A stretch of DNA of 64,000 nt, from NCBI GenBank assembly GCA_902613915.1, contig CACMJB010000001.1, positions 62,001 to 126,000 on the forward strand, written 5' to 3'. Positions within the stretch are counted from its first letter, which is position 1. Each line of letters opens with the position of its first letter. Below the pieces are notes generated by a model that saw only the letters and a program-made list of their open reading frames with translations, was not told the DNA's origin and ran no database searches. This document shows, piece by piece, positions 35,514-53,200 of the stretch. Source of the DNA: an uncultured Pelagibacteraceae bacterium (lineage in GTDB: Bacteria > Pseudomonadota > Alphaproteobacteria > Pelagibacterales > Pelagibacteraceae). A program made the position numbers and the translations under genes.

Positions 35514-35933
35514 ATGAATTCGATAGAGGAAAAATGTTTAAAAAAAGGTGTCAGGCTTACTGATCAAAGAAAAACTATTGCGAAAGTGATTTCTGAGTCC
35601 AAAGAAGTTTATGGCTCAAAAGACCACCCTGATGTAGATGAGTTACACAAAAGAGTCACTGCTATAGATAATAAAATAAGTATTGCCACAGTTTATAGAA
35701 CAGTTAAACTTTTTGAAGAAGCTGGAATTTTAGTTAAGCATGATTTTAAAGCTGGAAAGGCCAGGTATGAAATAAATGATGATCACAATCATTTAATAGA
35801 TATAAATAGTGGTGAAATTATTGAGTTCGTCGATAAAGATATTGAGGAACTTCAAGAAAAAATTGCAAAAAAATTAGGTTATAATCTTGTAGACCATAAA
35901 CTTGAACTTTATGGTTCTAAAATAAAAAAATAA
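35514..35933 (+). CDS. fur: Fur-family metal regulator (Fur/Mur-like)
   Basis: A 139-residue Fur-family repressor: winged helix 'CLKKGVRLTDQRKTIAKVI' and 'ISIATVYRTVKLFEEAGILVKHDF', then the metal-binding dimer domain 'DDHNHLIDINSGEIIEFVDKDIEELQEKIAKKLGYNLVDHKLELYG'. The first structural-zinc CxxC of E. coli Fur is replaced by IDINSG, as in alphaproteobacterial Fur/Mur proteins that answer to manganese or iron. The tsaB-fur-miaB order is alphaproteobacterial. The window has a second family member, Irr. Confidence 0.92.
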   Translation: MNSIEEKCLKKGVRLTDQRKTIAKVISESKEVYGSKDHPDVDELHKRVTAIDNKISIATVYRTVKLFEEAGILVKHDFKAGKARYEINDDHNHLIDINSGEIIEFVDKDIEELQEKIAKKLGYNLVDHKLELYGSKIKK

Positions 35934-48757: not shown

Positions 48758-49969
48758 TTATACCTTTTCAAAAATAAGAGCAGCGTTTGTTCCTCCAAAA
48801 CCAAAACTATTAGACATTACTGTGTTTAACGTGGCTCCTTTTTCAGTTTTAGAAATTATTGGATATTTTTTTGCTTCTTCGTCCATATCAGAAATATTTG
48901 CTGAACCTGTAATAAAGTTATTTTTCATCATTATTAAACAATAAATAGCTTCATGTACTGAAGCTGCTCCTAAAGGATGACCTGATAAAGATTTTGTTGA
49001 ACTAATTTTTGGCACATTTTCTCCAAAAGTTTTCCTTACTGCATTTAATTCAGTAATATCACCAACAGGTGTGGATGTTCCATGAGTGTTTATGTAATCA
49101 ATTCTATTTTTTGCAGTAGACATTGCCATTTGCATACATCTAACTGCACCTTCTCCAGATGGTGCCACCATATCGTAACCATCAGATGTAGCGCCATAGC
49201 CAGTAAGTTCAGCATAAATTTTTGCACCCCTTGCTTTTGCATGTTTATATTCCTCTAAAACTAAAACTCCGGCTCCTCCAGCAATTACAAATCCATCTCT
49301 TGTTTTATCATAAGCTCTTGAAGCTGTTTCAGGTTTATCATTGTACTTTGATGATAATGCTGTCATCGCATCAAACATTGCAGTCATTGCCCAGTGTACT
49401 TCTTCACTACCACCTGCAAAAATTACATCTTGTTTACCCATTTGAATTAACTCCATTGCATTACCGATACAATGACCGCTAGTCGCGCAAGCAGAGCTCA
49501 TCGTGTAATTAGTGCCTTTGATTTTGAATGGAACAGCAAGTGTTGCTGATGCAGTACTAGCCATTGTTCTAGGAACAATAAAAGGCCCCATTAGTTTTGG
49601 AGTTTTTGCTCTTGTTTTATCTGCAGCCAAAATTACGTTTTCAATTGAAGGGCCTCCAGAGCCCATGATAATTCCAGTTTTTATATTACTAACTTCATTA
49701 TCTTCTAATCCTGAATCCTTGATAGCCTCTTTCATCGCAATATAATTATACGCAGAACCCGATCCCATAAAACGCATTGACTTTCTATCTACGTGATCTG
49801 AAAGTTTAATATTAGGCTTACCATGAATATGACTTTTTAGATTATGTTCTTTATATTCTTCACAGTAAGAAATACCAGATTTAGAATTTAGTAAAGATTG
49901 ATGTACTTCTTCTTGATTATTTCCTAAGCAAGAAACAATACCAAGTCCTGTAACTACCACTCTTCTCAT
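48758..49969 (-). CDS. fabB: 3-oxoacyl-[ACP] synthase I FabB
   Basis: Condensing enzyme that elongates unsaturated acyl chains made by FabA. The 403 residues begin [18 protein letters not shown] and contain the active-site Cys in '[12 protein letters not shown]', the His residues in '[14 protein letters not shown]' and '[15 protein letters not shown]', and the final '[17 protein letters not shown]'. It overlaps fabA by four bases (ATGA). Confidence 0.97.
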
Positions 49970-50469
49970 GATTTGAACAATCCTACTTTTAAATTTTCTG
50001 TTCTATAAATTATTTTTCCATCTGCGCTTAATATTCCATTAGCTAAACCAACACACGTGCCTTCTTTCTTTAAAACTCTTTTCATGTTTATTTCGTAGGT
50101 TGCCATTTTTACTTTTTTTAAAACTTCACCAGTAAATTTTACAGAATTTACTCCCAAAGCTCTACCTTTTCCTGGCTCACCTATCCACCCCAGGTAGAAT
50201 CCAACTAGTTGCCACATTGCATCTAGGCCTAAGCAACCTGGCATAACTGGATCTCCCTTAAAGTGACAATCAAAAAACCACAAACTATCTTTGATATCTA
50301 GTTCTGCTTTAATAAAACCTTTTTTAAACTCTCCTGTATCTTTTGTAATTTCCGTAATCCTGTCAAACATCAACATGGGAGGAAGCGGAAGTTTTGCATT
50401 CCCCTCTCCAAATAATTTTCCCTCTCCACACGAAATTAGATCATCGTAGCTATAACTATTTTTTTGCAT
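49966..50469 (-). CDS. fabA: 3-hydroxydecanoyl-[ACP] dehydratase/isomerase FabA
   Basis: Introduces the cis double bond in unsaturated fatty acid synthesis. The 167 residues carry '[33 protein letters not shown]' with the catalytic His and Asp. Length is normal. It is the first gene of fabA-fabB-fabI and diverges from irr across 83 bases that hold an Irr-type operator. Confidence 0.97.
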
Positions 50470-50521
50470 AATTTTTAAATTGTTTTACTTGATTTAAGAA
50501 AGTAATGGTATATATTTCTAA

Positions 50522-50538
50522 TTTAGAATAATTATAAA
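50522..50538. promoter_or_regulatory. ICE/Irr-box-like operator before irr
   Basis: TTTAGAATAATTATAAA is a near-palindrome (TTTAGAA / TTATAAA, one mismatch to the reverse complement TTCTAAA). It resembles the iron control element TTTAGAA-N3-TTCTAAA reported for alphaproteobacterial Irr. It lies 14 bases before the irr GTG and recurs before katG. Negative autoregulation is inferred. Confidence 0.65.
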
Positions 50539-50552
50539 CTACAATTTAGTAA

Positions 50553-50966
50553 GTGAAAAAAACAAGTATTTTAAACAAATTAAGATCTTCCGGCTTAAGA
50601 CCTACTAAACAAAGAGTAGAAATTGCTAAGTTCTTATTTAATAGAGACAAGACTTTTCATTTTACAGTTGAGAGTTTAGGCAAACATTTAGCAAAAAAAA
50701 CTACAACAAAATTCGCTCTTGCAACAATTTATAATACAGTACACGCTTTTAAAAAAGCAGGTCACTTAAGCGAAGTACATTTAAGAGGCAAAAACAACAC
50801 TACTTACTTTGATACAAATATTTCAAACCATCATCATTTTTATGACAGTGAAACATCTGAGCTGATTGATATTAATGATAACGAGATAAAATTTGATAAA
50901 ATTCCCAAAGCACCTAACGGCAAAACTATTAAAAACTTAGAGGTAATCATAAATCTGAAAAACTGA
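50553..50966 (+). CDS. irr: Iron response regulator Irr (Fur family)
   Basis: Heme-sensing Fur-family regulator of alphaproteobacteria, active under low iron. The 137 residues have 'KLRSSGLRPTKQRVEIAKFLF', 'TTTKFALATIYNTVHAFKKAGHLSEV' (recognition helix), and the Irr-type HHHFYDSET histidine motif in place of Fur's metal site; no CxxC is present. The start is GTG 50553; no upstream ATG is available. Its position opposite fabA is the classical irr location. Control of irr itself and katG is suggested by shared operators. Confidence 0.92.
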   Translation: MKKTSILNKLRSSGLRPTKQRVEIAKFLFNRDKTFHFTVESLGKHLAKKTTTKFALATIYNTVHAFKKAGHLSEVHLRGKNNTTYFDTNISNHHHFYDSETSELIDINDNEIKFDKIPKAPNGKTIKNLEVIINLKN

Positions 50967-50987
50967 CAGTTTGTCGCTTGGACTTAC

Positions 50988-51004
50988 TTTAGAACTATTA
51001 TAAA
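50988..51004. promoter_or_regulatory. ICE/Irr-box-like operator before katG
   Basis: TTTAGAACTATTATAAA matches the box before irr at 15 of 17 positions, differing only in the central spacer. It ends 21 bases before the katG ATG and overlaps a plausible -10 element, so bound Irr should repress katG. A ribosome site AGGAGA follows. Confidence 0.65.
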
Positions 51005-51016
51005 CTTTAAATATAG

Positions 51017-53200
<2,184 letters not shown>

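Follow-up and report, generated by a model that had tools for sequence, protein, structure and literature searches.

Irr of the Alphaproteobacteria binds the ICE motif (TTTAGAA-N3-TTCTAAA) when it carries no heme, and sites that cover a promoter lead to repression. The Cys-Pro heme motif of the B. japonicum type is not universal in Irr proteins. The His-cluster heme/metal site of Irr has been defined, and Irr of B. japonicum, which has been compared with PerR, oxidises itself via heme and the His cluster (PMC4700492). In R. sphaeroides, the deletion of irr increases both katE expression and H2O2 resistance (PMC3413700). In P. ubique HTCC1062, the irr transcript clustered with stationary phase and not with iron, the Irr protein was unchanged, and the mRNA of rbr (SAR11_0399) was 1.57-fold up on iron limitation (PMC2864753). 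katG is present in most offshore SAR11 genera (PMC12636525).

The locus described here belongs to a SAR11 (Pelagibacteraceae) genome of 1.008 Mb that is 93% complete, and lies in a stretch of 64,000 nucleotides, all of which was analysed and which we call the window. The fabI-fabB-fabA genes on the minus strand are followed by irr, katG, a 2OG oxygenase gene and a DUF2061 gene on the plus strand. The divergent neighbour fabA (49966..50469, minus strand), identified from sequence and model scores, shares the region of the irr ICE. irr (50553..50966, plus strand, GTG start at 50553) encodes a Fur-family iron response regulator of 137 amino acids. katG (51026..53200, plus strand, ATG start at 51026) encodes a catalase-peroxidase HPI (TIGR00198, 1027 bits). 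It is followed, after gaps of 1 and 13 nt, by the genes of an Asp/Asn beta-hydroxylase-like 2OG oxygenase (Asp_Arg_Hydrox, PF05118; 53202..53840, plus strand), which accompanies katG in nearly all loci, and of a small DUF2061 membrane protein (PF09834; 53854..54078, plus strand), the final gene of the run. The profile scores of the encoded proteins bear out the earlier note on this DNA, which had named irr and a katG-oxygenase-DUF2061 run. A fur gene is found at about 35541-35912 of the window, approximately 15 kb before irr.

The same note had described two 17-mers, identical at 15 of 17 positions and resembling the ICE motif. The window sequence agrees on coordinates and identity: TTTAGAATAATTATAAA is located at 50522-50538 (plus strand), between the divergent fabA and irr, and TTTAGAACTATTATAAA at 50988-51004 (plus strand), before katG. 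Each is a single mismatch away from the TTTAGAA-N3-TTCTAAA palindrome, and both carry the same C-to-A change, which gives a TTATAAA right arm. As is usual for ICEs, which are found in the promoters of irr-linked or iron/heme genes, both occupy such promoters and co-occur with irr. No other exact match to TTTAGAAN3TTMTAAA occurs in the window. With one mismatch allowed, 6 matches (two-strand counting) stand against 1.42 expected, and 0 of 100 shuffles contain as many. The whole 1.008-Mb genome contains three exact matches. The third, C5:14337, was rejected as an extra Irr target: it is coincidental, falling inside the coding sequence of alanine dehydrogenase, at its 3' end (C-terminus). The copies with one mismatch that were examined as further targets were also discarded, four being within coding sequence and one being intergenic without a clear link. 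The broad degenerate form of TTTAGAAN3TTMTAAA shows no genome-wide enrichment over a mirror control; what is informative is the strict form and where it occurs. An inverted repeat, GACAGTTTGTC, which is common in the window's genus, is present between the irr stop codon and the katG ICE (50965..50975).

The Irr protein encoded in the window is closer to Irr than to Fur, PerR or Zur, with bit scores of 137.5 for IrrA and 125.7 for Irr, compared with 56 for PerR and 30 for Fur, its IrrA score being under the curated NCBIfam cut-off (137.5 vs 150 bits). It has the His cluster, an HHH stretch (H93-H95) that is invariant among 8 diverse SAR11 Irr proteins. The Cys-Pro heme regulatory motif is absent, the window Irr having no cysteine in its sequence. 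With HHH but no Cys-Pro motif, the self-destruction route of B. japonicum Irr may not fully apply to this protein.

The Irr protein scan gave 80 SAR11 irr loci, and the family survey, together with stretches of further genomes, brought the set to 180. According to the gene that follows irr, 136 of them are irr-katG, 41 are irr-rubrerythrin (rbr) and 3 are other. Allowing a single mismatch, 169 of 177 loci have an ICE at the junction of irr with the following gene, compared with 8 of 3,540 shuffles that preserve dinucleotides (0.2%). In the fabA-irr interval, the corresponding figures are 152 of 178 loci and 18 of 3,560 such shuffles (0.5%). Motif loss at the irr and katG orthologues of related genomes was the outcome that the earlier note had set against its own proposal, and the scan found the motif retained: before katG in 133/136 katG-type loci with up to two mismatches (130/136 with up to one), and before irr in about 116/136 katG-type and 41/41 rbr-type loci. 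At both the irr and the katG sites, nearly all arm positions are 94-100% conserved and most flanking positions are variable. Across 58 genomes of the order, TTTAGAAYNRTTATAAA, the strict pattern, is rare, at about one or two copies per genome, and nearly all the matches retrieved in the window's family are at an irr, katG or irr-rbr locus. The ICE upstream of irr is missing in about 15-20 loci, notably in one clade of the genus and in genus g9, where the katG ICE is retained; autoregulation would therefore not be universal.

The position of the sites relative to promoter elements is also conserved. Among loci outside the window's closest relatives, 67 of 73 have TTGACA (5-6 of 6 positions) at a distance of 15-18 nt upstream of TATAAA in the right arm of the ICE, against 1 of 438 shifted controls. 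The right arm had been described in the earlier note as -10-like at both sites. This is supported for katG, for which relatives have a TTGACA -35 at the right distance. For irr it calls for caution, a better promoter being predicted upstream, with the ICE at the likely start site. The double use of the right arm as a -10 would account for the shared TTATAAA deviation at katG. The predicted katG promoter of the window, TTGGAC-N15-TATAAA (50978..51004, plus strand), follows from the sequence and from the geometry in relatives; its own -35 is weak (TTGGAC, with a 15-nt spacer), that of relatives being strong. For irr, the predicted promoter is TTGATT-N16-TATATT (50489..50516, plus strand), with the ICE at about +1, and both TTGATT and a TATATA run recur in relatives. 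An ICE placed upstream of the -35 has the canonical right arm, TTCTAA (L164, L216 and distal rbr/katG sites). The katG ICE thus extends over the -10 and the spacer and the irr ICE over the likely start, a geometry that fits repression. Two other promoter elements were considered and rejected: a TTGACA overlapping the irr stop codon in the genus, which is 31 nt from the TATAAA and hence unsuitable as the katG -35, and a fabA-directed promoter with a TATAAT inside the irr ICE, whose -35 would be in the segment between the ICE and the irr start, the length of which varies among relatives. Two ICEs, one on each side of the -35 and separated by 31-32 bp (three helical turns), occur in rbr promoters and, in several genomes, in katG promoters (L153 of G059, L184, L191, L175 and similar), which suggests cooperative binding on one face of the DNA. 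ICE pairs at other loci are 23 bp apart.

The katG ICE disappears together with irr. Where no irr was detected in a genome, an ICE within one mismatch precedes 0/16 of the katG genes whose upstream sequence could be read, and one of the 16 has a two-mismatch ICE. The figure for katG genes accompanied by irr is 130/136 (Fisher p about 4e-17, uncorrected for phylogeny). Within genus g9, the sister genomes G118 and G137 (loci L263 and L264) show fabA directly adjoining katG, with irr precisely missing and the ICE absent, whereas G122, G125, G130, G135 and G138 have kept both irr and the katG ICE. With its gene cleanly missing, the regulator looks to have been lost by natural deletion in G118 and G137. 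In G165, an apparent exception, the contig ends just upstream of katG, and irr may be missing from the assembly only.

Based on these observations, we propose that both 17-mers are Irr operators at which the katG run and irr would be repressed when heme and iron are low, and we give this reading a probability of roughly 0.8. The assignment is made from the sequence and from conservation in the fabA-irr intergenic region for the site before irr, and from the sequence, conservation and -35 geometry in relatives, and absence where irr is undetected for the site before katG. In SAR11, a link between peroxide defence and the heme and iron state of the cell is thus very probable. We infer the binding of Irr, the direction of its action and the iron/heme signal from the known biology of Irr. 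At low iron or heme, heme-free Irr would bind the near-palindrome as a dimer. This dimer would overlie the -10 of katG together with the spacer that separates it from the -35, and at irr it would overlie the transcription start. Bound Irr would then keep katG and the downstream oxygenase and DUF2061 genes repressed, along with irr itself. In heme-replete cells, heme at the HHH cluster, perhaps aided by peroxide, would inactivate Irr and so allow synthesis of KatG, a heme enzyme. One published dataset, that of P. ubique HTCC1062 (PMC2864753), sits uneasily with this reading, as irr there did not follow iron and rbr was slightly up on iron limitation.

The gene behind irr is exchangeable. On the tree of Irr and FabA, the katG/rbr label changes at least six times, all the changes being forced by well-supported branches. 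The locus of the sister family f2 is fabA-irr-rbr, and in part of this family the perfect ICE palindrome TTTAGAATSATTCTAAA occurs once per genome, between irr and rbr. The surveyed genome G011 also carries an irr-rbr locus. Among the 29 best-matching loci of other Alphaproteobacteria, a sample biased by this choice, about 23 have rbr after irr, and about 16 of these 23 junctions contain an ICE (at most two mismatches). As the pair occurs class-wide, mostly with an ICE between the genes, rubrerythrin is probably the ancestral Irr target and katG its replacement. The Irr-ICE-rubrerythrin unit would have come first, and SAR11 lineages would have repeatedly exchanged rubrerythrin for katG with the ICE kept in front. 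It is an even call whether this can be extended to a general statement, namely that the position behind irr is a slot for exchangeable peroxidases under Irr, occupied ancestrally by rbr throughout the class and switched to katG, perhaps also back, at least six times, the ICE being kept or rebuilt, and that, without OxyR and PerR, Irr is the main switch coupling H2O2 removal to heme and iron.

Several individual loci bear on how such exchanges may occur. In G004 (family f2), an irr-katG pair with both ICE-like sites is located beside an ABC transporter gene and not beside fabA (L276, 1467-1983), which suggests transfer as a unit. In the same genome, a perfect ICE is present between a gene similar to the DUF2061 gene of the window and fabA (L296, 1501-1517), irr being elsewhere. 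L009, L012 and L014 have katG alleles that are only about 70% identical to that of the window, beside a near-identical or similar irr, and L014 has lost the katG ICE. The near-identical irr and promoter of L009 and L012 point to an exchange of katG itself. In L089-L095 (family f2), a strict ICE is found between a peroxiredoxin gene and a divergent gene of the metallo-beta-lactamase fold (putatively persulfide dioxygenase-like), and this is a possible further Irr target.

The alternative that survives best is that Irr is chiefly a peroxide-linked switch: heme-bound Irr would be oxidised and destroyed as peroxide rises, thereby derepressing katG or rbr without OxyR or PerR. In Fur-family and LysR searches of the 93% complete genome, neither OxyR nor PerR was recognised, the Fur family comprising only Fur, Irr and a Zur-like protein and the LysR family one GcvA-like member. 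This makes a peroxide signal via Irr a live alternative, although at this completeness a regulator may be missing. Both exchangeable targets, katG and rbr, are peroxidases, and rbr goes up, not down, on iron limitation (PMC2864753). The self-oxidation of B. japonicum Irr through heme and the His cluster (PMC4700492), taken with the invariant HHH of SAR11 Irr, would also be in line with such a switch. However, SAR11 Irr does not exhibit the Cys-Pro heme motif, at which Irr of B. japonicum chiefly generates H2O2, and we regard a chiefly peroxide-driven Irr as possible but doubtful. Activation by Irr under low iron, in place of repression, appears unlikely. In B. japonicum, Irr and ICE take part in both positive and negative control (Rudolph 2006, as cited in PMC2864753), some loci have the ICE just upstream of the -35, and the rise of rbr mRNA in P. 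ubique (1.57-fold on iron limitation, PMC2864753) is opposite to a simple repression of rbr. Nevertheless, the overlap of the katG ICE with the -10 and spacer, and of the irr ICE with the likely start, fits repression, and the irr mutant of R. sphaeroides has more katE (PMC3413700).

Binding of the sites by another Fur-family protein, such as Fur itself, is very improbable: the window does contain fur, and operators of the Fur family are likewise AT-rich near-palindromes, but these sites match the Irr consensus, adjoin irr class-wide and are gone in genomes that have a Fur-like gene and no detected irr. Least probable of all is that the motifs are mere conserved core-promoter elements (a -10 with AT-rich upstream sequence), as the TATAAA at -10 distance from TTGACA in relatives could suggest, since the left arm TTTAGAA, which is no part of a sigma-70 promoter, is invariant in the compared katG/rbr set, the motif is found at one or two promoters per genome and is missing at katG promoters when no irr is detected in the genome, and upstream of the -35 it has the canonical TTCTAA arm (L164, L216) or is a perfect palindrome (sister family).

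SAR11, the most abundant bacteria of the ocean, rank among the most numerous cells on Earth, and heterotrophs that carry katG are believed to protect plankton without catalase, such as Prochlorococcus. If Irr indeed switches katG as proposed, this shared service of peroxide removal would be linked to iron and heme supply. The locus would also offer a testable regulatory circuit in a group with few understood transcription factors, and a clear case of a regulator that keeps its operator while the target enzyme is exchanged. The regulator and the motif are known; katG as a target and the exchange of target enzymes appear new. This novelty is provisional, as no description of these SAR11 sites was found in the literature searched, the Irr regulon study of Rodionov 2006 being outside that search.

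With regard to known systems, the locus resembles the Irr/ICE regulon of rhizobia and Rhodobacterales (mbfA, bfr, ccpA) in its regulator family, its 17-bp near-palindrome, its peroxide/iron targets and an operator that coincides with the promoter or the start site (PMC3413700). It differs from this regulon in that the target is katG beside irr, in the fixed TTATAAA arm that doubles as a -10, and in the restriction of strict matches to one or two places per genome. The arrangement is the same as that of alphaproteobacterial irr-rubrerythrin loci, with an ICE between irr and the next gene and often fabA opposite, but katG, the oxygenase and DUF2061 stand in place of the rubrerythrin, FeS protein and DUF3501 genes. 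As in PerR-katG and OxyR-katG control, a regulator would control katG, and PerR is a relative of Irr within the Fur family. In contrast to these systems, PerR and OxyR are not recognised in this genome, an ICE serves as the operator, and heme/iron is expected as the signal.
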